Translations under genes and position numbers: made by a program | The notes under the pieces: model-generated | What the model was told of the DNA's origin: nothing | Database searches by the model: none | What the model saw: only the letters and a program-made list of their open reading frames with translations | Source: Enterococcus mundtii | Lineage (GTDB): Bacteria > Bacillota > Bacilli > Lactobacillales > Enterococcaceae | Direction: 5' to 3' | Assembly: GCF_013394305.1 (NCBI RefSeq) | Contig: NZ_AP019810.1 | Span: forward strand, 1,991,501-2,055,500 | Length of the DNA: 64,000 nt | In this document: in pieces, positions 1,218-56,556 of the stretch | Numbering within the stretch: the stretch's first letter is position 1 | Layout: each line of letters opens with the position of its first letter

Positions 1218-2488
1218 ATGCACATTTTATTTGATCATTTAGTCATGGCAGATAAGACGAAACGTTGGCTGCTCTTATTGGCGACGTTAGAAGAAGAGGA
1301 ACATGTTACCGCACAAACCTTAGCTAAACAGACTGGGTTTGGGCGACGGACGATTATTGAGGATATAAAGGTGATCAAGGACTATTTTGGTGAGCGGATC
1401 CATTTGATCGGCGATGAGAAGGGCTATCACTTTTCCTTTCTGAACCCTAAAGGGTATTATGAGGAGAAACAAGCGTTACTAAATGAAGAGAAACTTTTTC
1501 TTTTTGTGGATCAATTGGCTGCGGGAAAGTGTTTAGACAATCAACAGTGGATGGCGTATCTTGATGTGTCGAGTGCAAGCTTCCAACGGATGAAACGGCA
1601 GCTTCAAACGTTATTAACGACCTACTATGGGATAAAAATTGAATCTAAAACCAATCAATTATGGGGCGAAGAAGCGGGGATTCGCCAATTCCTTTATGAT
1701 TTTTATTTCACCTTACCATTGTATCCTAGGTTTCTTTCAGAACATATTCAGGACCTACATCAGGAGAAAGTGGCGATTCAAGACGGACCTTGGCACCTAG
1801 ATCAAACCTTGTTTAATCAATGGCTGAAACTAGCTAAGCAACGAGTCGACCAAGGACATTGCTTACAAGAACAAGTGGCACATAAACAAGCCCAAACAAC
1901 TCTAATCCAGGCTTTGGATCAACAGGTGAGTGTGTTTCTGCCAGGACCAGAAAAAGCTGCGTTGTTTCTTCTCTCGTTAGATGAGAGTCAATTTTTGAAC
2001 CCTTTGACACAACAGGCATTTACCCGCACATTTTCACCTGCGAGTGAGTATGAGTTACCGAAGGTCTGACTTATGGTTTTTTCGAAACACTCCTTTTTTT
2101 AATGGAGGCCTTTTTCCAGCTACCTACACTTGAAGCACCAGAACAAGTGCCGTATGCAAACAGTGATAAACCGTCTCCTTTAGAAGTACTCATGAAACGT
2201 TTTTTAGCTGAGAAGAAAAAATATAGCCAGACGATTTATGTTTCCTATCAGCTAGTAGGACCACGTGCTTTGACACGATGGATCAAACAGGAAGTTGAAA
2301 CGATTTTAAAAAAATCTGGCCTACAGGTGGTGGAAGCTGCCCAAATGAATCCACTGGGACTAGTACGTCATGTACAAATCGTGAATCAACCACAAGCTAG
2401 AAACGCTCGTGAAACGATTGAACTTCCCTATGTACCTAGCAAGGAGAAAATCGATGAAGTGCTCTCTGCATTTTCTGAGTCAAGATGA
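1218..2488 (+). pseudogene. Mga-like transcriptional regulator, frameshifted
   Basis: Two open segments in different frames belong to one Mga-family regulator. 1218-2069 carries the N-terminal winged-helix DNA-binding region ('LAKQTGFGRRTIIEDI', residues ~36-51) and a PRD-like middle. The second segment continues through 'LTYGFFETLLFLMEAFF' and an EIIB-like C-terminal fold to 2488. The second frame has a stop at 2051-2053 and the first stops at 2067-2069, so a single indel between about 2054 and 2067 would rejoin them. The rejoined product is ~420 residues, shorter than the ~490 of the intact paralogue at 2538, so an internal deletion is also possible. An alternative ATG is at 1245. A sequencing error cannot be excluded from one sequence. 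Confidence 0.8.
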
Positions 2489-2537
2489 GTGAACGAGCAT
2501 GAGAGGGAAATATTTGAAAAAGTGAGGGGGAAAAAAA

Positions 2538-4016
2538 TTGCGTGAGTTTCAGATGGCGTTTATTACAAGCGCAGAGGTCAAGCGATGGATGCAGGTGTTA
2601 AGTGTGATGGAACAAGAACGGCGTTTTACGATTGGAGAGCTGAGTGAACGACTGGCTATTTCACAACGTACCTTGATAAAAGATATTCAAGCATTCAAAA
2701 ACCATTTTGGCACAAGCATCGAATTACGTTCGAATTATAGTGGGTATTATTTTGAAGAACGAAATCGTAGGGACTACCAAGAGAAAAAAGAACAACTGTT
2801 GGAAAACGAAGTGTTATTTGAAATCGTGGGAAATGTTTTTTGGGGAAAAGATTTTACAGTGGCTGACTTGGCTCACCAGCACAGTTATGCAGAGAGTACT
2901 TTACGAAGGTTTTTATTAAGAATCCGACCGGTATTAGCTGAGTATGAGTTAACGTTGGCTTTTAACCCAGTCAATTTTTTAGGGGAAGAAGCCAATATCC
3001 GAAAGTTCTTTTTTGATTTTTATTATAGCAGTGAACAAACTCCGTATACAATCCGTCCGCCAGAAGACTTACATACGTTGGTCTTGAACGAACTGTCTGG
3101 CAAATTGGGAAAGTATGAATTGGGTACGGGAATCACGATTTCAGCCTTTTATTACCAGCTTTATATCGCAATGGTCCGAGTTCATCAAAACCATTTTATG
3201 TCCTTACCTGAATGGGTAAAAGTAAGCATTTATCAGGAAAAAGATTTTCAGTTGCTTTATTCTTTACAAGAAAGAATCAAAGATGAATACGAGATCTATC
3301 TATCAAAGGAAGAATTCGCTTGGATCCATTTATCGATTATTTCCAAACGGACGATCCATCGTGTGGACCAAGAACAAACTTTTAACCAACGATTCAACCG
3401 CTGGAAGGATCTTCAATTCATCGTGTCAGATTATCTTTCTGATCCTTTCTTTGAACAATGGGATACGGATACTTTAGAACCGTTTATGACCTCTTTTTTC
3501 ATTTCGCGCTTGATGAATGAAGCAGTGAGTCCAGTGTTGAACAAAGAGCTAGAAGAAATCCATTGGATGGTAAAGAAAAGCGATAAACAGATTTATGAAG
3601 CCCATAAACAATTTCTCTTAAAACATGCCCGAGTACTCAGTTTTTCTGGTCAATATTTTGAAGATATCGTGGTGAGTTTTACGGCATATATGAACTTATT
3701 GTTCCACTATTACCAACCGGTCAAAAAAGTTTTATTTTTATTAGAAGGTGACTACTTAGTGGTTCAATCCATCCGAATGCAGGCACGTGTACTATTAGGG
3801 GAATATCATAAGCTGTTGTTTATGCCGCTTCAGGAATTGACGCCGGAACATTTAAATGATGCACACGTTGATTTGATTGTAACGAACTATCGACCGTACC
3901 TTTTGGATTACGCTCTTGACACGGATTATGTTCTTATGGGCAGTATTCCTACGGCGCAAGATTGGGCAAGAGTCAAGCATCAGTTGAATCCACTGATCGA
4001 TCATGAAACATTTTAA
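2538..4016 (+). CDS. Mga-family helix-turn-helix regulator
   Basis: This 492-aa protein has an N-terminal HTH_Mga/winged-helix segment ('IGELSERLAISQRTLIKDI', about residues 32-50), a central PRD-like region and a C-terminal EIIB-like segment ('VKKVLFLLEGDYLVVQSI'). Mga-type regulators are DNA-binding activators of surface and sugar genes whose PRDs can be phosphorylated by the PTS. The start is taken as TTG at 2538 because GAGGGGG lies 7 bases upstream; ATG at 2553 is the alternative. It directly follows the frameshifted paralogue at 1218 and precedes a broken small gene, and all three point the same way. Target genes are not evident; the upstream WxL protein is a candidate by position only. 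Confidence 0.8.
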   Translation: MREFQMAFITSAEVKRWMQVLSVMEQERRFTIGELSERLAISQRTLIKDIQAFKNHFGTSIELRSNYSGYYFEERNRRDYQEKKEQLLENEVLFEIVGNVFWGKDFTVADLAHQHSYAESTLRRFLLRIRPVLAEYELTLAFNPVNFLGEEANIRKFFFDFYYSSEQTPYTIRPPEDLHTLVLNELSGKLGKYELGTGITISAFYYQLYIAMVRVHQNHFMSLPEWVKVSIYQEKDFQLLYSLQERIKDEYEIYLSKEEFAWIHLSIISKRTIHRVDQEQTFNQRFNRWKDLQFIVSDYLSDPFFEQWDTDTLEPFMTSFFISRLMNEAVSPVLNKELEEIHWMVKKSDKQIYEAHKQFLLKHARVLSFSGQYFEDIVVSFTAYMNLLFHYYQPVKKVLFLLEGDYLVVQSIRMQARVLLGEYHKLLFMPLQELTPEHLNDAHVDLIVTNYRPYLLDYALDTDYVLMGSIPTAQDWARVKHQLNPLIDHETF

Positions 4017-7261: not shown

Positions 7262-8932
<1,671 letters not shown>

Positions 8933-8943
8933 TGAGTGATAGA

Positions 8944-9056
8944 ATTGCTCAGCTCCGAGAAATAAGTGTGAAGTATCGGAAATTTTTCTTTTCATTTTTT
9001 ATATTTCACACTTATTTCTGGAACACCGTTCATTTGGTTTTAGGTGTGCAAGCTAC
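8944..9056 (+). repeat. Intergenic hairpin repeat, copy A
   Basis: The element starts CTCAGCTCCGAGAAATAAG and ends CTTATTTCTGGAACACCGTTC. AAATAAGTGTGAA pairs with TTCACACTTATTT. Its flanks match copies at 34.5, 39.0 and 56.2 kb. It lies just after the GH13 stop, where it may act as a transcription terminator. Confidence 0.7.
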
Positions 9057-18458: not shown

Positions 18459-19136
18459 TTGGAAAAAATACTTTTAGTTGAAGATGAAAAAGAAATTTCA
18501 GACCTAATTCTCTTTTATTTGCAGAACGAGAATTTTTTAGTAACGACTTGCTCTGATGGGAAATCTGCTCAAACACAAATTGAACAAAATACATTTTCAC
18601 TGGCAATTCTTGACGTGATGCTACCGGACATCTCTGGGTTCGAACTTTGTAAAGAAATCCGAAAAAATCATAAATATCCGATCATCATGTTGACCGCAAA
18701 AACCGAGGAAATCGATAAGATCACAGGATTGACGATTGGCGCAGACGATTATATTACGAAGCCCTTTCGCCCTTTAGAAGTAATTGCCCGAGTGAAGGCC
18801 CAGATTCGGCGATCCACTCAGTACAATGGATTTGATAAACACAAATTGATCGTTAAAGATTTGGTATTAGATGTTGATAAACGAAAATGTTTTTTACAGG
18901 AAGAGGAGCTTTTTCTGACACCAATCGAATTTTCCATCTTAAAATTATTGATGGAACGCCAGGGACAAGTCATCAGCTCTGAAGAAATGTTTCATGAAAT
19001 TTGGGGCGAAAAATATTATACTTCCTCCAATAATACCATCATGGTCCACATTCGAAATTTAAGAGAAAAAATGCATGACACGCACAAGCAGTCTTCCTAT
19101 ATTAAAACGGTTTGGGGCATTGGCTATAAAATTTAA
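18459..19136 (+). CDS. OmpR/PhoB-family response regulator (VanR-like)
   Basis: The 225-aa regulator has a receiver domain with acidic pair 'VEDEKE', phospho-acceptor Asp in 'LAILDVMLPD' (about residue 51), Thr in 'MLTAKTEE' and Lys in 'YITKPFRP', then a winged-helix DNA-binding domain ('LTPIEFSILKLLM' to 'VWGIGYKI'). TTG 18459 is the start, with AAAGGACGG about 10 bases upstream. Paired with the preceding kinase. The order kinase-then-regulator is the reverse of most VanRS pairs. Confidence 0.92.
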   Translation: MEKILLVEDEKEISDLILFYLQNENFLVTTCSDGKSAQTQIEQNTFSLAILDVMLPDISGFELCKEIRKNHKYPIIMLTAKTEEIDKITGLTIGADDYITKPFRPLEVIARVKAQIRRSTQYNGFDKHKLIVKDLVLDVDKRKCFLQEEELFLTPIEFSILKLLMERQGQVISSEEMFHEIWGEKYYTSSNNTIMVHIRNLREKMHDTHKQSSYIKTVWGIGYKI

Positions 19137-19182
19137 AGCTAAGATCAGAAAGCGTGGCATAAGTCAGGCAGTGTATACGCAC

Positions 19183-19238
19183 AAAAACACAAGGGACATT
19201 CGAAAACCAACAAATTTCGAGTGCTCCTTGTGTTTTTA
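19183..19238 (+). terminator. Terminator after the two-component genes
   Basis: AAAAACACAAGG pairs with CCTTGTGTTTTT; an inner CGAAA/TTTCG stem closes the loop. It ends in a T-run. Confidence 0.8.
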
Positions 19239-19411
19239 TCTTCGATGTTTCAACTAATTTTTTTCGTTCTTCTAGTTCAATAGCGTGGCTTAGTGAAAGG
19301 GATTATCTGCTTATTTCCAGCGAGCGTCCACCACGATACCCTTTACTGATTGAAACGTTTTCTAAGAAATGATACTCTAAGGATAACAGATGAAAAAGAG
19401 GAGAATAACAT

Positions 19412-29207: not shown

Positions 29208-29340
29208 GGGCTTTTTTTACAACTTGATAGATAGTGTTCATGAAGCAACACTTCGGTCATAAGCCAGAAAAATCAAAAATGAACCAGCCATTTTCGATTT
29301 TCTATTTTACTGCTCAGGTCAGAGCGCTTCTTTCACAACC
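29208..29340 (-). repeat. Intergenic hairpin repeat, rha copy 1
   Basis: First of two tandem copies in the rhaA-rhaD gap. It pairs GAAAAATC...ATG with CAT...GATTTTC around about 29290, with outer arms GAAGC and GCTTC. Its GTGTTC block recurs 118 bp later in copy 2. It is more degenerate than copy 2. On the minus strand it carries the family end block GAACAC. Confidence 0.55.
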
Positions 29341-29461
29341 TGTGATAAACGGTGTTCGAAAGCCAGCTCCTTCAATATTAAGTCAAAAATCGAAAAAATA
29401 TGAGGAACTATTTTCTCGATTTCCGTCTTAATACTCGGAGCTAAACGGCTTTCTCACAACC
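29334..29461 (-). repeat. Intergenic hairpin repeat, rha copy 2
   Basis: A ~100-base imperfect hairpin: GAAAGCC, CTCC, TATTAAG and AAATCGA on the left pair with TCGATTT, CTTAATA, GGAG and GGCTTTC on the right. Minus-strand reading gives GGTTGTGAGAAAGCC, then TTAGCTCCGAG, later TTGAAGGAGCT and CGAACACCGTTTATC, the same blocks as the copy at 56.2 kb. Its outer GGTTGTGA contains the rhaA stop codon. Confidence 0.65.
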
Positions 29462-30710
29462 TCTTACTTTGTACGTCTTTTTCGTATTGTAGGACTTCTT
29501 GGTACCAGTCCATGCCTACTGGGACGTTGTTGATTTCACAGAAGTAATTCCAAACGTCGGCGTATGGGAAGTCTTTTAATTCTTCAGTGAAGGCTAAGCG
29601 TTTGGTGAAGTCGAAGTTTAGTTCGGCTTGTTTTAATTCTTCGATTGGTTCAAGCATGGCTTTTAACAATGCCTTTTGCGTATTTCTTGTGCCGATTGCC
29701 CATGCGGCGATCCGGTTGATGGTTGCGTCAAAGAAATCGAGTCCGATCGCTGTTTTTTCAAGTAAATGATTGCGGACTAATTCTTTGCCGATTTCTTGTA
29801 ATTCATCATCCATGATCACAACATGGTCTGAATCCCAACGCACAGGACGAGAGACGTGGAGCATGATCCCTTTTGAGAATAAGGCTAAAGACGAAAGTTT
29901 ATTGGAGATGACTTCAGTTGGATGGAAGTGTCCTGCGTCTAGGCAGATCAATTTGTTACGTGTCAATCCATAGCCCATATAAAATTCGTGTGAACCTACT
30001 GTGTAAGCTTCGGCACCAAGTCCAAATAGTTTGGATTCTACGGCATCTTGTGTATATTCTTCGTTGAGTTCTTCTGAGAAAATCTCATCTAAAGATTCCA
30101 TCAACCGTTGGCGTGGAGATAGGCGGTCGATTGGATTGTCTTTCATTCCATCAGGCATCCAAAAATTATCGATACATGTTTGTCCGATTTCTTTTCCCAT
30201 ATACTCGGCGATTTTACGAGCGCGTTTCCCATGTTCGATCCAGTAATCCCGTACTTCTTTGTCTGGATGAGCAAGTGTCAAGCCATCTTTCATCATTGGG
30301 TGAGAGAAGAAGGTTGGATTGAAATCAAGACCGATGCCTTGTTCTTTTGCCCATGCGACCCATTTCTCGAAATGTTTTGGTTCGATCTCATTTAAATCGA
30401 CCGGTTCGTCTGTATCTAGATACATGGCATGTAAATTCAATTTATGATTCCCAGGAATCAATGAGAAAGCTTTTTCTAAATCTTGGCGTAATTGGTCCGG
30501 CGTATGTGCGGCTCCAGGATAGTTTCCTGTAGCCATGATGCCACCTGTTAATTCTCCATCTGGTGTCAAGAAACCTTTGACATCATCGCCTTGCCAACAG
30601 TGCATCGAAATCTTCACTTCTGCGAGTTTCTGCAAGACCTCCTCAGTATCGACACCGATACTCGCATATTTTGCTTTGGCTTCTTCATAACGTTCTTTGA
30701 CATTCATCAT
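29454..30710 (-). CDS. rhaA: L-rhamnose isomerase
   Basis: The 418-aa TIM-barrel enzyme interconverts L-rhamnose and L-rhamnulose using Mn2+. Family blocks seen: 'ISMHCWQGDDVKGF' near residue 33, 'NLHAMYLDTDEPVD', 'GLDFNPTFFSHP', 'CLDAGHFHPTE' (metal ligands Asp and His) and 'SRPVRWDSDHV'. Length is one less than E. coli RhaA. GGAGAG precedes ATG 30710. It lies between rhaB (15 bases upstream) and rhaD. Confidence 0.97.
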   Translation of the reverse strand: MMNVKERYEEAKAKYASIGVDTEEVLQKLAEVKISMHCWQGDDVKGFLTPDGELTGGIMATGNYPGAAHTPDQLRQDLEKAFSLIPGNHKLNLHAMYLDTDEPVDLNEIEPKHFEKWVAWAKEQGIGLDFNPTFFSHPMMKDGLTLAHPDKEVRDYWIEHGKRARKIAEYMGKEIGQTCIDNFWMPDGMKDNPIDRLSPRQRLMESLDEIFSEELNEEYTQDAVESKLFGLGAEAYTVGSHEFYMGYGLTRNKLICLDAGHFHPTEVISNKLSSLALFSKGIMLHVSRPVRWDSDHVVIMDDELQEIGKELVRNHLLEKTAIGLDFFDATINRIAAWAIGTRNTQKALLKAMLEPIEELKQAELNFDFTKRLAFTEELKDFPYADVWNYFCEINNVPVGMDWYQEVLQYEKDVQSKRL

Positions 30711-34496: not shown

Positions 34497-34518
34497 GGAC
34501 GTGGGCGATACATAAAAA

Positions 34519-34705
34519 AAACAACTGCGAAGGGAGTGAGACATTAGTTCTCCCCCCACCTATAACCGAATAAACGGCGGGAACAGAAGTAACCTCTTCG
34601 AAAAATAAGGCGCCATCCACAAAAATTTGAAAAACAATTTTCGTGGATGGCGCCTTATTTCTCGAGGCTGAACACTTCTGTCCCGACCTCAGATCGCAGT
34701 TGTTT
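34519..34705 (-). repeat. Intergenic hairpin repeat, copy B (bidirectional terminator)
   Basis: Outer arms AAACAACTGCGA (34519-34530) and TCGCAGTTGTTT (34694-34705) enclose the element; the inner stem pairs AATAAGGCGCCATCCAC with GTGGATGGCGCCTTATT. Read on the minus strand it has the family blocks ACAGAAGTGTTCAGC, CGAGAAATAAG and CCGTTTATTCGGTTATAGG. It lies between convergent genes and both ends carry T- or A-runs. Confidence 0.8.
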
Positions 34706-34709
34706 TTTG

Positions 34710-38975: not shown

Positions 38976-39000
38976 GGATTGGATTTTAATATACAGAAAA

Positions 39001-39103
39001 GCTGTGACCTAAGTGTTCAGCCCTGAGAAATAAGCGTGAAACCCAGAAAATTCCTCTTGGAATTTTTGAGGTCTCACGCTTATTTCTGAAGGAGCTACTT
39101 CAC
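39001..39103 (+). repeat. Intergenic hairpin repeat, copy C
   Basis: Blocks AAGTGTTCAGCCCTGAG, AAATAAGCGTGA and CTTATTTCTGAAGGAGCTACTTC match the copy at 56.2 kb. AATAAGCGTGA pairs with TCACGCTTATT, and AAAATTCC with GGAATTTT at the tip. It lies between convergent genes and lacks the family's distal CCGTTTATTCGG block. Confidence 0.75.
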
Positions 39104-39104
39104 A

Positions 39105-40052
39105 TTATCGCCAAATAATTACTGGATCTTCTGCTTCCACGATCCTGTCACTCTGGGATAAGAGAAAATCTACTGCGGAGGCGCCGATTTTTTTAGGGGA
39201 GAAATCAATAGTTGAAAAGGCTAATATCTCACTATATGGTAGATTTCCTTCACCTATGACAGTGAAATCTTTTTTATGAATGAATCCTGCCTGTTTCATT
39301 CCTGAAATTACACCGGCTGCTGTATCATCGCCATTGACATAGATTACCTCTGGAATAGAGGCGAGAGTTGTGATCTCTATTGCGAACGCATAGCCATCTG
39401 CATAGGTTTCGATACCAGTGAAATAGTTTTTTCCTTCAATCGCTTTTCCAAAATACATTTCATAAGCAGTCAATTTGTTTTTTGTGGTCTGGCTTTGTGA
39501 GGCACTGCGTTTAGTAGTAAAGATGACCCTGGAAATACCACGGGTATGCAGGGTAAGAAACAATTGATCATACACTTTTTTTCGATCTGGATAAATCATG
39601 GCAAGGTCGTCATTGTCCATCTTTTCAGTTGAGACGATTTTTCCTTTGAAGCGAAGAGGTTCAAGTAGTTCATCAATTTTTGTTCGTGACGTCAGAATAA
39701 GACCGTCGATCATTTTTTGCTCTAGTAATGTGTAATAGTGACTCTCCGTCTCCTTTTCATAATAAGTAGGAAGTAATAATACTTGATACCCTTTACTTTT
39801 TGCCTGATACAAGATACTGTCCACCAACTGATTATAACAAGAACTGTTGTTAGGCAAGGTAACACCTAAAGTATAGGTTTCTCCTTTACTCAATTTTACA
39901 GCATTGCCGTTCACCACATAGTTCGTCTCTTCAATAACGGATTGGACTTTTTTTCGTAAATCATCGGATACGTAACGGTCATTATTTATCACTCTGGAAA
40001 CGGTAGATTTGGATACTCCTGACATTTTTGCGATCTCTCGAATCGTAACGAT
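39105..40052 (-). CDS. LacI-family transcriptional regulator
   Basis: N-terminal HTH 'TIREIAKMSGVSKSTVSRVI' and hinge, then a periplasmic-binding-protein-like effector domain ('YTLGVTLPNNSSCYN', 'VIYVNGDDTAAGV'). The expected start lies just before TIREIA, and GGAGG (40061-40065) is ideally placed for a codon at 40052-40050, but that codon is ATC, not ATG. The nearest upstream in-frame ATG (40136) would add 28 unrelated residues and overlap the divergent phosphatase gene. Either ATC is used, or the start was lost by one base change. It diverges from a HAD phosphatase with a perfect palindrome between them, so it likely controls that gene. Confidence 0.75.
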   Translation of the reverse strand: MVTIREIAKMSGVSKSTVSRVINNDRYVSDDLRKKVQSVIEETNYVVNGNAVKLSKGETYTLGVTLPNNSSCYNQLVDSILYQAKSKGYQVLLLPTYYEKETESHYYTLLEQKMIDGLILTSRTKIDELLEPLRFKGKIVSTEKMDNDDLAMIYPDRKKVYDQLFLTLHTRGISRVIFTTKRSASQSQTTKNKLTAYEMYFGKAIEGKNYFTGIETYADGYAFAIEITTLASIPEVIYVNGDDTAAGVISGMKQAGFIHKKDFTVIGEGNLPYSEILAFSTIDFSPKKIGASAVDFLLSQSDRIVEAEDPVIIWR

Positions 40053-40072
40053 GGGATTTTCCTCCTTTTCTC

Positions 40073-40103
40073 TTGACTTGGGACGCGTCCCAGTAGGTAT
40101 ACT
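40073..40103 (+). promoter_or_regulatory. Promoter and operator of the HAD phosphatase gene
   Basis: TTGACT, 19 bases, TATACT. The spacer holds TGGGACGCGTCCCA (40079-40092), a perfect 14-bp palindrome with central CG as in LacI-family operators. The divergent LacI-type protein is the obvious ligand. Confidence 0.68.
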
Positions 40104-40125
40104 TTTTCTGAAAGGTGGTAATGGA

Positions 40126-40941
40126 ATGACAATCAAAATGATCGCTGTAGATATGGATGGTACATTTTTGAATGATCAAAAGAAATACAATGAAGAACGC
40201 TTTAAGAAACTTTTTGACTTACTACAGGAAAAAGAAATAAAGTTTGTTGTAGCAAGTGGAAATCAATATTTCCAGTTGCGTTCATTCTTCCCTGATCTTT
40301 ATAAAAGTATAGCATTCGTAGCAGAAAATGGGGCAAATATTTTAATTGGTGAAGACCATGTGTACAATGCAGAATTACGTCCTGAAAAAATCGTTCAGAC
40401 ATTAGATGTATTGGAAGAGTTAGCGCCCATGAACTTGATCTTATGTGGGAAACAGAGTGCCTATCTCTCTAATACGGTTTCTAAGGAATTGTTTGAACGT
40501 GCAAGTTTTTACTACCCGAAGCTTGAAAAGGTAGAAGACCTGTATACGTTAGCTAAGGGAGAAGAAACGATTTTCAAGTTTGCTTTATCCTTCAATGAGC
40601 AAGAAGTGGCAGAAAAACTAACTGCCTTAAAGCATTCTTTAGGAGAGGGATTGATACCGGTCTCTAGTGGTCATGGAGATATCGATTTGATCATCCCTGG
40701 TGTCCACAAACTAAACGGGTTACGCTTGTTAGGCAAAAAATGGGGAATCAACGAGGATGAGATTGCTACGTTTGGCGATAGCGGGAATGACTTTGAAATG
40801 ATCCAACAGATCAAGCACAGTTTTGCTATGGAAAATGGACAGCCCAAGATCAAAGAAGCAGCTACGACGATTATCGGATCAAATAATACAGAGGCTGTAC
40901 TCGATACGATCCAAGCAATTGTAGAAGGGAAATATACGTAA
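40126..40941 (+). CDS. Cof-type HAD phosphatase
   Basis: The 271-aa HAD-superfamily IIB hydrolase begins 'KMIAVDMDGTFLNDQKKY' with the two catalytic Asp in D-M-D-G-T, then 'VVASGNQYFQ' (motif II), a Lys-containing cap and 'ATFGDSGNDFEMI' (motif IV). Such enzymes dephosphorylate sugar phosphates, FMN or PLP. AAAGGTGG lies 9 bases before ATG 40126. It is divergent from a LacI-type regulator with a shared operator, suggesting a sugar-phosphate substrate. Natural substrate unknown. Confidence 0.88.
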   Translation: MTIKMIAVDMDGTFLNDQKKYNEERFKKLFDLLQEKEIKFVVASGNQYFQLRSFFPDLYKSIAFVAENGANILIGEDHVYNAELRPEKIVQTLDVLEELAPMNLILCGKQSAYLSNTVSKELFERASFYYPKLEKVEDLYTLAKGEETIFKFALSFNEQEVAEKLTALKHSLGEGLIPVSSGHGDIDLIIPGVHKLNGLRLLGKKWGINEDEIATFGDSGNDFEMIQQIKHSFAMENGQPKIKEAATTIIGSNNTEAVLDTIQAIVEGKYT

Positions 40942-40954
40942 CTTAGTGGTGGCA

Positions 40955-41090
40955 AATTACCGAAACATTGAGCTATAAGAAATAAGGCATCATCCACGAA
41001 AATTGTTTTTCAAATTTTTGTGGATGATGCCTTATTTTTCAAAGAGGTTCCATTTGTTTCCGCCGTTTATTCGGTTTTAAGTAGTGTGAG
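40955..41090 (+). repeat. Intergenic hairpin repeat, copy D
   Basis: AAATAAGGCATCATCCAC pairs with GTGGATGATGCCTTATTT (perfect 18 bp), with AAAATTG/CAAATTTTT at the tip; CCGCCGTTTATTCGGTTTTA follows. Between convergent genes. Its stem resembles copy B (GGCGCCATCCAC) but with matched changes on both arms. Confidence 0.78.
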
Positions 41091-49391: not shown

Positions 49392-49525
49392 AAAAGTTGG
49401 ATAGAAGGATCTAACCTCGATAAATCAGGCGCCATCCACAGTGGTTTTAACCTTATGTGGATGACGCCTTTTTTAAAACCATTATTTTTTGGTCCGTCCT
49501 TTATCCTGTTTAAGGTGAGACAAGT
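49392..49525 (+). repeat. Intergenic hairpin repeat, copy E
   Basis: AGGCGCCATCCACA pairs imperfectly with TGTGGATGACGCCT; CCTCGATAAATCAGG matches the CGAGAAATAAGG block of copy B. The distal block is decayed. It lies between dhaL and the convergent truncated surface gene, where it should terminate both. Confidence 0.65.
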
Positions 49526-50710: not shown

Positions 50711-50957
50711 AGGAGATAGATGAATAAGGAATTAGACGATGAATAAAACGAAGTAGTGGATAAAGCCAATGTTTCAGAAAGCTAGTGGTTGCTGTGAACT
50801 AGTACATGCTTTAGCGCGAATTACATTTTAGGAGTCTATGGCATGAAGCCACGCGACAGCGTTAAATGTTAGAGAGATATGTTTGGAAAACAAACATATA
50901 ATTTGGGTGGTACCGCGAATTTTCGTCCCTTGACTTGATTGTCAAGGGATTTTTTTG
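50711..50957 (+). promoter_or_regulatory. Tyrosine T-box riboswitch
   Basis: The ~245-base leader ends with the T-box GGGTGGTACCGCG (50905-50917) and a terminator (50926-50957: TCCCTTGAC with GTCAAGGGA, then T8). The specifier region GAACTAGTACATGC has the Tyr codon TAC at 50803-50805. Uncharged tRNA-Tyr should stabilise the antiterminator and allow tyrS transcription when tyrosine is short. Confidence 0.94.
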
Positions 50958-51029
50958 TTGTCTGCCCGGTAATAAATGACATGCTGGCAGGGACCTGCTT
51001 TCATAAAAAAAGATATGGAGGGAAATGTT

Positions 51030-52286
51030 ATGAATATTATTGATGAATTAACTTGGCGTGATGCCATTAACCAACAAACCAACGAAGAAAGACTTCGCGA
51101 GCTTGTTGAAGAAAAGAGTATCTCGCTTTACTGTGGTGTCGATCCAACAGGAGATTCGATGCATATTGGGCATTTGATCCCGTTCATGATGATGAAAAGA
51201 TTCCAATTAGCAGGGCATCATCCATACATCCTGATTGGTGGAGGAACTGGAACGATCGGTGATCCAAGTGGACGGACAAGCGAACGTGTTTTACAAACGA
51301 TGGAACAAGTCCAACATAATGTGGATGCATTATCGAACCAAATGCGCAAACTTTTTGGGAAAGATGCCAATATTACATTTGTGAACAACTATGACTGGTT
51401 ATCAAATATTTCTTTATTAGAATTTTTAAGAGACTACGGAAAAAACTTCAACATCAATACGATGTTAGCGAAAGATATCGTGGCAAGTCGTTTGGAAGTC
51501 GGAATTTCATTTACCGAATTTACTTACCAAATCTTGCAATCGATCGACTTCTTGCACTTACACAGAACATACGATGTGCAATTACAGATCGGTGGAGCTG
51601 ACCAATGGGGAAACATCACTGCTGGTTTAGATCTGATCCGTAAATTGGAAGGACCAGAAGCGGAAGCCTTTGGGTTGACGATCCCATTAATGCTAAAAGC
51701 AGATGGAACAAAGTTCGGAAAAACTGCCGGTGGTGCAATCTGGCTAGACCCTGAAAAAACATCCCCTTACGAATTCTACCAATTCTGGTTGAATCAAGAT
51801 GATCGGGATGTTGTGAAATACTTGAAATTCTTTACTTTCTTATCACAAGAAGAAATCAATGAATTAGCGAAAAAAGTGGAGACAGAACCTGAAAAACGTG
51901 AAGCACAACGCCGTTTGGCAGAAGAAGTGACACGTTTTGTCCACAGCGAAGAAGACTTACAAGAAGCGCAAAAAATCACAGCTGCATTGTTCTCTGGAAA
52001 TATCAAAGAACTAAATGCGTCAGAAATCGAACAAGGCTTTGGAAACATGCCGAATGTAGAGATTTCAAGTACCCCTGAAAATATCGTGGAACTACTTGTT
52101 TCCACAAAAATCGAGCCATCAAAACGTCAAGCGCGTGAAGATGTGTCGAACGGAGCTATAAGTATTAACGGTGATCGCGTAACCGATTTAAATTTTGTCA
52201 TTGATCCAGCTACAGAATTTGATGGTAAATTCGTAGTGATCAGAAAAGGGAAAAAACGCTACTTTTTGGCCAAAGTAGTTGATTAG
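51030..52286 (+). CDS. tyrS: Tyrosyl-tRNA synthetase (TDC-cluster copy)
   Basis: The 418-aa class I synthetase has 'YCGVDPTGDSMHIGHL' with the HIGH motif (about 44-47), Tyr-binding 'TYQILQSIDFLHL' and 'GGADQWGN', KFGKT-type motif 'GTKFGKT' and a C-terminal S4 RNA-binding domain. GGAGGG lies before ATG 51030. It follows the tyrosine T-box and precedes tyrDC and tyrP, as in other enterococcal TDC clusters, where this synthetase is induced by tyrosine shortage. A second housekeeping tyrS may exist elsewhere. A terminator separates it from tyrDC. Confidence 0.95.
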   Translation: MNIIDELTWRDAINQQTNEERLRELVEEKSISLYCGVDPTGDSMHIGHLIPFMMMKRFQLAGHHPYILIGGGTGTIGDPSGRTSERVLQTMEQVQHNVDALSNQMRKLFGKDANITFVNNYDWLSNISLLEFLRDYGKNFNINTMLAKDIVASRLEVGISFTEFTYQILQSIDFLHLHRTYDVQLQIGGADQWGNITAGLDLIRKLEGPEAEAFGLTIPLMLKADGTKFGKTAGGAIWLDPEKTSPYEFYQFWLNQDDRDVVKYLKFFTFLSQEEINELAKKVETEPEKREAQRRLAEEVTRFVHSEEDLQEAQKITAALFSGNIKELNASEIEQGFGNMPNVEISSTPENIVELLVSTKIEPSKRQAREDVSNGAISINGDRVTDLNFVIDPATEFDGKFVVIRKGKKRYFLAKVVD

Positions 52287-56114: not shown

Positions 56115-56140
56115 TGGGGGGACTCCCTCTTAGAGAATAT

Positions 56141-56315
56141 AAAACAACGAGGTTGTGACAGAAGTGTTCAGCTCCGAGAAATAAGCGTGAAACCCCGAAA
56201 ATTGTTCTTCAAATTTTTGGGGTTTCACGCTTATTTCTGAAGGAGTTACTTCTGGAACACCGTTTATTCGGTTCTAGGGGATGCAAGATAACTCATATCC
56301 TGGGCTCGTTGTTTT
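56141..56315 (+). repeat. Intergenic hairpin repeat, copy F (best-preserved)
   Basis: Outer arms AAAACAACGAG (56141-56151) and CTCGTTGTTTT (56305-56315) enclose blocks ACAGAAGTGTTCAGC, TCCGAGAAATAAG, then the inner stem GCGTGAAACCCC/GGGGTTTCACGC with AAAATTG/CAAATTTTT, then TTATTTCTGAAGGAG, ACTTCTGGAACACCG and TTTATTCGGTTCTAGG. It lies 27 bases after the tyrP stop and likely ends that operon. Confidence 0.82.
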
Positions 56316-56556
56316 TCTTAAAAAATCAAGAGCAAAAAATAGAGCCGTCTCAACTTTTGGCGAAGTAGACGTGCTCTAATGCTCTATCGATGCTATCTGC
56401 TTTGAACGGACTACATGGGGCATGTTAATGCATGCCTCTTTAACCACATTTTAAGAGATTTTTAGAAAGAATAGAAGAGATTTCTTTTTTTGCTTATTTC
56501 TAGTTAAATACAAATGTGGACTTATCGTTAGTGGATCAGTTGATTACTAGTAAAAT
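56316..56556. other. Intergenic remainder after tyrP
   Basis: No ORF. Contains an AGAGCCGTCT/AGACGTGCTCT hairpin (about 56342-56378) and a GGGGCATG/CATGCCTC dyad (about 56417-56434). Confidence 0.35.

Follow-up and report, generated by a model that had tools for sequence, protein, structure and literature searches.

An abundant enterococcal intergenic repeat is probably an IS1182-type MITE that replaces host terminator hairpins

Two reports on Enterococcus faecalis V583 describe intergenic repeats that are relevant here, the Efa elements of 2006 (PMC1590033) and the Efa-1 family of 2008, which is 163 bp long, has 65 copies, 18 of them complete, and forms two adjacent stem-loops (PMC2267715). 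The available parts of these two texts give neither the ends of the repeat nor a mobile origin or a target. In staphylococci, IS1272 and TnSha1 are described, in the text accessible to us, as replacing or cutting hairpins, several of them confirmed terminators, in both orientations (PMC5678879, PMC4923244). MITEPye1 of Paracoccus yeei has IS1182-like TIRs of 18 bp and no transposase gene, and folds into a long stem; it differs from the repeat studied here in being flanked by direct repeats and in having one to three chromosomal copies, and the available text makes no mention of terminator replacement (PMC11578231). RUP, BOX and SPRITE of Streptococcus pneumoniae are likewise small intergenic repeats able to insert into one another, a likeness drawn by description only; SPRITE is terminator-like, and hairpin replacement is described for none of the three in the portion available (PMC10969869).

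Here we report on a family of intergenic hairpin repeats in a 64-kb window (the whole stretch of DNA analysed, G000:C1:1991501-2055500, where G000 is the genome of the window). We consider it very probable that these repeats are a non-autonomous MITE, ~160 bp long here and 170 bp in its E. faecalis form, belonging to a subgroup of IS1182, which replaces host terminator hairpins. The element resembles IS1272 and TnSha1 in its target, a hairpin and often a terminator, in the whole or partial loss of the stem-loop, in the lack of a target duplication and in its occurrence in both orientations, the comparison being one of insertion behaviour as described and not of end sequences. It differs from them in gene content and size: according to the accessible text, IS1272 and TnSha1 contain either a transposase gene, in an IS of ~1.9 kb, or a passenger gene, whereas the element here is 160-170 bp long, gene-free and far more numerous. 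The copies in the window and their surroundings, as located by the covariance model R1, a window-free profile, a matrix of IS ends or folding, are the following:

56149..56307, forward strand: best preserved element, with the 5' TIR at 56149, the long hairpin, the conserved CCGTTTATTCGG and the 3' tail
56305-56307, forward strand: CTC, the 3' TIR of this element, which ends the 3' tail
56143..56151, forward strand: left half of the outer stem, AACAACGAG, its final 3 bases being the element end; base-paired to the right half on folding
56305..56317, forward strand: right half of the outer stem, CTCGTTGTT, with T-run, its initial 3 bases being the element end
34532..34690, reverse strand: subtype 2 element (GGCGCC stem) with convergent ORFs on both sides (R1 and IS-derived matrix)
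34516..34530, forward strand: terminator half AAAAAACAACTGCGA, left of the 34532..34690 element (fold)
34694..34708, forward strand: terminator half TCGCAGTTGTTTTTT, right of the 34532..34690 element (fold)
29345..29463, reverse strand: tandem array, first of two modules (R1 and window-free profile)
29219..29341, reverse strand: tandem array, second module, decayed (R1 and window-free profile)
8936..9045, forward strand: shortened copy, 3 bp past ORF 7301-8932 (R1)
38998..39124, forward strand: copy that overlaps ORF 39105-40136 (reverse strand) at its 3' end and has a 3' part not alignable to the family (R1)
40949..41082, forward strand: subtype 2 copy with decayed 5' end and convergent ORFs on both sides (R1)
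49394..49516, forward strand: strongly decayed copy between convergent ORFs (R1 33.5 bits, window-free model 27.1 bits)

A preliminary description of this DNA had counted at least eight copies in both orientations. All eight were recovered by a profile built from 16 copies in the rest of the genome, with no window copy included, as modules at 56149, 34690 (reverse strand), 40959, 39001, 29463 (reverse), 8936, 29341 (reverse) and 49399. Their scores range from 27.1 to 135.3 bits, while the highest score in 20 random 64-kb sequences of first order was 10.7 bits. R1, which was partly built from window copies, recovers the identical eight modules, with weak scores for 49394 (33.5 bits) and for the second tandem module at 29242 (26.9 bits). 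Of the positions listed there, 29208 and 29334 form a single tandem pair, leaving seven intergenic loci. All seven abut or overlap an ORF 3' end (≤35 bp), and five of them lie between convergent ORFs. The recurrent flanks are as described. The interval 56141..56315 first given for the best copy does hold an element, but with other boundaries: the element is 56149-56307, and the remainder includes part of the outer stem on its left side. R1 scores this copy at 159.6 bits (56149-56279), the matrix derived from IS ends places its ends at 56149 (forward) and 56307 (reverse), and the fold z for 56130-56330 is -11.7.

A covariance-model search of the whole genome, as the preliminary description had proposed, went far beyond the eight copies. 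R1 gave at least 147 matches in G000 (E ≤ 0.01; 150 of 2992 candidates scored), merging into at least 123 loci, and at least 150 matches in G004, merging into at least 115 loci. The claim of a structured intergenic gene-end family that occurs in both orientations and is widespread in enterococci is upheld, with a match in at least 72 of 99 Enterococcaceae genomes (E ≤ 1e-6; 34 candidates per genome scored). In a sample of the order, at least 32 of 199 genomes have a match, at least 12 of them outside Enterococcaceae (17 candidates scored), and BLAST found the element in 67 plasmid records, 56 from Enterococcus and 6 from Lactiplantibacillus. Many of the matches in G000 and G004 belong to tandem arrays, which repeat every 119-120 bp. 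Three to five such modules follow one another at G000:C1:1076071-1076439, G004:C1:2035008-2035498 and G004:C1:3219652-3220256; at places that are likely orthologous, compared without alignment, G000 and G004 apparently differ in array size, and in tandem arrays the following module begins at the position of the single copy's tail hairpin.

An exact 20-base piece of the element was present in 35 stretches in genome contigs. Thirty of these belong to Enterococcus sp. BWB1-3, which suggests a recent burst; the other five are from E. rivorum, E. mundtii and uncultured Enterococcus. (The stretches L046-L080 are thus mostly from this one genome.) As none of the exact matches came from E. faecalis, we turned to the plasmid collection for a 747-kb record of this species. 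On this record of 747,526 bases R1 gave 16 matches at ~12 sites, four of the matches being opposite-strand echoes. All eight copies measured are 170 bp long, with a long hairpin and a second, adjacent one, and with the ends GAGGTCGGGACAG and GAGCGTGGGACA or close to them; the sole site with annotation lies behind a PTS gene. The published Efa and Efa-1 repeats, as far as the available text describes them, are likewise from E. faecalis, intergenic, near gene 3' ends and made of paired adjacent stem-loops, at 163 bp vs 170 bp here, and Efa-1 has 65 copies in the V583 genome vs ~12 sites in the 747,526 bases searched here. Matched by species, size, double hairpin and place against the published description, the E. 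faecalis form fits the Efa/Efa-1 repeat, and we take it to be Efa-1. The preliminary remark that no name was known for the family is accordingly not supported.

We compared orthologous sites between G000 and G004, which are 95.8-99.9% identical across the main aligned blocks of the window, at 17 candidate loci, with junctions judged by eye. Seven loci were resolved, meaning that both flanks align and one genome is without the element. At all seven, the free allele has a terminator-like hairpin and the other allele has the element in that position, and no target duplication is visible at any of them. In the filled alleles, the stem-loop or its upper part is gone and its A-tract/T-tract base is retained. 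At 1011547, the free allele CAAAA-ACCCGAGAATAATTTTTTTATTCTCGGGT-TTTGCG corresponds to the filled allele CAAAA-GAGGTCGGGAC...CAGACAC-TTTGCG; a point against the reading preferred here is that free hairpins at this site reach 5 to 10 bits in the element profile. At 592730 the replacement is limited to the hairpin top, and at 882025 the hairpin of the free allele has an element-like loop and may be an element remnant. Nine of the 17 loci have one or both flanks that do not align in the stretches compared (G000 1948738, 2441201 and 388958; G004 496052, 3278201, 1758860, 1284175, 1732316 and 1711309). At 595089, G000 and G004 carry different copies, that is, copies have been exchanged, and at the window locus 34519 the element of G004 is inverted relative to that of G000, between similar terminator halves.

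Given that stem-loop replacement is known for IS1272, a member of the IS1182 family, and for TnSha1, we searched the genus for PF13751. The search revealed two kinds of IS1182 ends in Enterococcus, designated subgroups A and B. The ends of subgroup B include GAGCTTGGGACATAAGTCC and GGGGCTGTGACATAAGTCC, and three of its proteins exceed the NCBIfam cut-off for IS1182 (NF033551). The ends of the element are GAGGTTGTGACAGAAGTG and, reversed, GAGCCTGGGACATTAGTG. An end matrix was made from 15 distinct ends of 10 subgroup-B IS copies, none from this genome; it excluded six loci without ends found, as well as L194 and L199, in which the best ends were of a different type (GGGGCTGACCC). Over 127,964 window positions, element ends take rank 1 (34532), 3 (56149), 4 (34690) and 6 (56307) of this matrix, so that four of the six best positions are the ends of the two best-preserved window copies. 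The other six window modules are older or cut, and their ends are absent from the 14 best positions listed. The TIRs are imperfect, the 5' end scoring below the 3' end, and the 5' end of the E. faecalis element is equalled by 17 background positions. Rank 2 falls at 19148, the start of a stretch that matches the right end of a subgroup-B IS (L165/L186/L187) at 72% over 90 columns:

19148..19240, forward strand: probable decayed end of a subgroup-B IS1182, the presumed partner family, directly past ORF 18459-19136

A search of this genome revealed no intact subgroup-B transposase; besides the probable end at 19148 it turned up one short remnant, L215 (57% over 61 aa). The subgroup-B protein query has matches in 34 of the 99 family genomes, a few of which are subgroup A (e.g. 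in G004, 28% identity), and set against the at least 72 of 99 genomes with the element this makes the pairing of IS and element a loose one. The element itself has no room for a gene, at 159-160 bp in all six G000 copies measured. The resident intact IS1182 copy L156 was rejected as a direct partner, as its ends (CAGACTGTAGACAAA) do not fit the element; the end of L157, TTTGTCTACAGTCTG, is of the subgroup A kind.

Some observations concern the IS copies themselves. Subgroup-B IS adjoin half elements (18-19 bits) in L163 (half element 131-172, IS 182-2000) and in L184 (half element 3200-3249, IS 1384-3191), an arrangement as if the IS had inserted into the element's own hairpin. Copies of subgroup A, with the ends CAGACTGTAGACAAA or one change from them, are 1506-1538 bp long. 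Direct repeats of 18-33 bp, spanning all or most of a terminator-like palindrome, were seen in 10 of the 14 subgroup A copies with both ends found (L156, L158, L160, L161, L162, L164, L169, L170, L173 and L181), as in that branch of the Wan et al. 2017 model in which the entire stem-loop is duplicated. L159, L178, L180 and L183 have no direct repeat; hairpins lie beside most of their ends (by eye), and L178 and L183 resemble a recombined inverted pair.

Hairpins might also be exchanged without a transposase, if stem-loops and A/T tracts recombined or gave rise to template switching and palindrome-templated repair kept the arms matched. The inverted copy at 34519, the swapped copies at 595089, the tandem arrays of 119-120 bp period and the failure to find an intact cognate transposase in this genome would all suit such an exchange. 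We nevertheless regard it as improbable, considering that the ends of the element match IS1182 inverted repeats, that IS1272 and TnSha1 are already described as hairpin replacers, and that copies are present on plasmids of other genera.

The architecture of the element was derived from an alignment of 32 hand-picked copies from the window, G000, G004 and other genomes, with tandem copies excluded (A1). A long hairpin is followed by the conserved CCGTTTATTCGG and then by the 3' tail with an additional small hairpin. The variable stem of the long hairpin comprises ~10 bases, its partner arm mostly matches (in this helix 94.8% of cells are paired, and 94.4% overall), and two subtypes can be told apart by their stems, CTCC/GGAG vs CCTC/GAGG. 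Consistent with the earlier remark that differing stems are matched by their partner arms, 21 of 40 pairs show a double compensating change. The covariation score was 0.388 vs 0.144 (sd 0.009) for column shuffles and vs at most 0.098 with partners slid, with the caveat that kinship among copies can by itself exceed column shuffles. This stem covariation may reflect upkeep of a palindrome at the DNA level rather than selection on RNA.

The whole element is enclosed by an outer stem that is copy-specific in sequence, for example AACAACGAG/CTCGTTGTT at 56143-56313 and CAACTGCGA/TCGCAGTTG around 34532-34690. This outer stem with its T-run, already pointed out in the preliminary description, proved to be real when flanks were swapped among the 77 arrays with both ends: own flanks paired better on average, with a mean of -9.18 vs -7.67 (sd 0.26) for permuted ones (0 of 5000 permutations). 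Per array, the own pair was the best in its row in 7 of 77 cases and in the lower half in 26 of 77, a thin effect that is expected if many old stems are mere A/T tracts. The outer gene-end stem mostly seems to be the remnant of a host terminator overwritten by the element.

None of 90 element groups lies inside an ORF of ≥80 aa (ORFs mostly within an element excluded). By ORF context, 29 groups are convergent, 49 codirectional and 7 divergent, with 5 at stretch edges, and 56 of the 78 groups with a neighbouring ORF 3' end are within 60 bp of that end. A T-run follows 57 of 77 arrays vs 34% of 2098 overlapping element-free intergenic window stretches, and an A-run lies ahead of 30 of 77 arrays vs 12% of random window stretches. 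T-runs, A-runs and gene-end positions together indicate that the element is mostly a larger hairpin sitting on a terminator base. A stem followed by a T-run behind a gene is the signature of an intrinsic terminator, and on the strength of position and T-runs the element probably serves as one, in agreement with the use first proposed for it. Unpublished data cited in the available text of the 2006 report suggest that Efa RNA may stabilise mRNA (PMC1590033), a role different from termination yet compatible with it.

Covariation, gene-end placement and T-runs would also be expected of a functional RNA family, that is, a REP/BOX-like terminator or RNA processing site which owes its conservation to its structure and its spread to ordinary descent and duplication only. 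Such a family is very unlikely in our view, as the presence of the element varies among neighbouring species at orthologous sites, where the free alleles have other hairpins, as its mobile ends are recognisable, and as the covariation could equally stem from DNA-level palindrome repair. The likeness to REP/BOX elements offered in the preliminary description accordingly gives way to the anatomy and insertion behaviour of an IS1182 MITE; we abandoned kinship with REP/BOX once IS1182 was indicated by both the empty sites and the ends. The sizes differ as well, REP/BIME being a palindrome of 20-40 bp in the text available (PMC3733652) and the element 159-170 bp.

The direction of change could be read at one site and was more complex at others. 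At 1011547 the homologous hairpin is kept in G004, G008 and G011 and the element is in G000 only, and this is the one cleanly polarised gain of an element. At 1166395, for which 16 genomes were searched and 14 inspected, 9 of the 14 have a plain terminator; G000 and G008 have a common element replacing it, and G006 has an element in the opposite orientation. Two counter-cases are found at this locus: in G005 and G003 the element adjoins an intact plain hairpin that it has not replaced. G009, one of the nine, apparently has an element fragment next to its terminator. In three of four flanks G004 is a closer match to G000 than is G008, and the sharing of the element by G008 and G000 at 1166395 and 882025 therefore requires recombination, parallel insertion or loss. 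This sharing, with G004 free, and the element-like loop at 882025 could point to the reverse direction, an ancestral element replaced by short hairpins, which is the least probable of the alternatives and highly unlikely in view of the single hairpin common to three relatives at 1011547 and the predominance of plain terminators at 1166395.

Together, the IS-like imperfect TIRs, the lack of a gene, presence and absence at orthologous sites, both orientations and the gene-end sites make an IS1182-type MITE with IS1272-like, hairpin-replacing insertion the most likely explanation. A DDE transposase of the IS1182 family, acting in trans, would cut both the element and the target hairpin, and the element would then be joined to the hairpin stump, in line with what Wan et al. 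2017 proposed for stem-loop replacement. Being a large hairpin placed on the old stem base and T-run, the element could take over as the terminator, often a bidirectional one. Such a takeover would keep the cost to the host low, so that copies could accumulate, as in the two genomes counted, each of which has >100 sites. The element's own hairpins may serve as targets as well, and tandem arrays as well as swapped or inverted copies would follow from this. With less assurance, we lean towards a broader reading, namely that one MITE family took over a sizeable share of host terminators as a standard two-way terminator module, in the form of cassettes that can be flipped or swapped, and that two branches of IS1182 in one genus attack a common type of target in contrary ways, one replacing the hairpin and the other duplicating all or most of it.

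In the literature searched, which included PMC7724050 and mostly lay outside subscription journals, the accessible text connected neither IS1182 nor the replacement of terminators with the enterococcal repeat. The IS1182-type origin of the Efa/Efa-1 repeat is thus likely to be new, as would be the takeover of terminators at >100 sites per genome, two genomes counted. A probable origin is thereby supplied for a repeat family that was reported without one in 2006 and 2008, and hairpin-replacing transposition is extended from the staphylococcal IS1272 and TnSha1 to a very abundant MITE. If true, host terminators have been handed to a selfish element, illustrating how a mobile element can grow numerous by landing where harm is small. 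Near-identical genomes in which an orthologous terminator either has or lacks the element provide a natural experiment, and the family cautions that stem covariation in intergenic repeats does not necessarily reveal a selected RNA.

Finally, we searched the window with Rfam. Around 56133-56358 there were sub-threshold matches, mainly with models of miRNAs and other hairpins, which we regarded as fortuitous. Nothing in the window exceeded the gathering score except a T-box elsewhere, an ordinary leader at 50730-50933 (RF00230, 114 bits) that precedes ORF 50976-52286.
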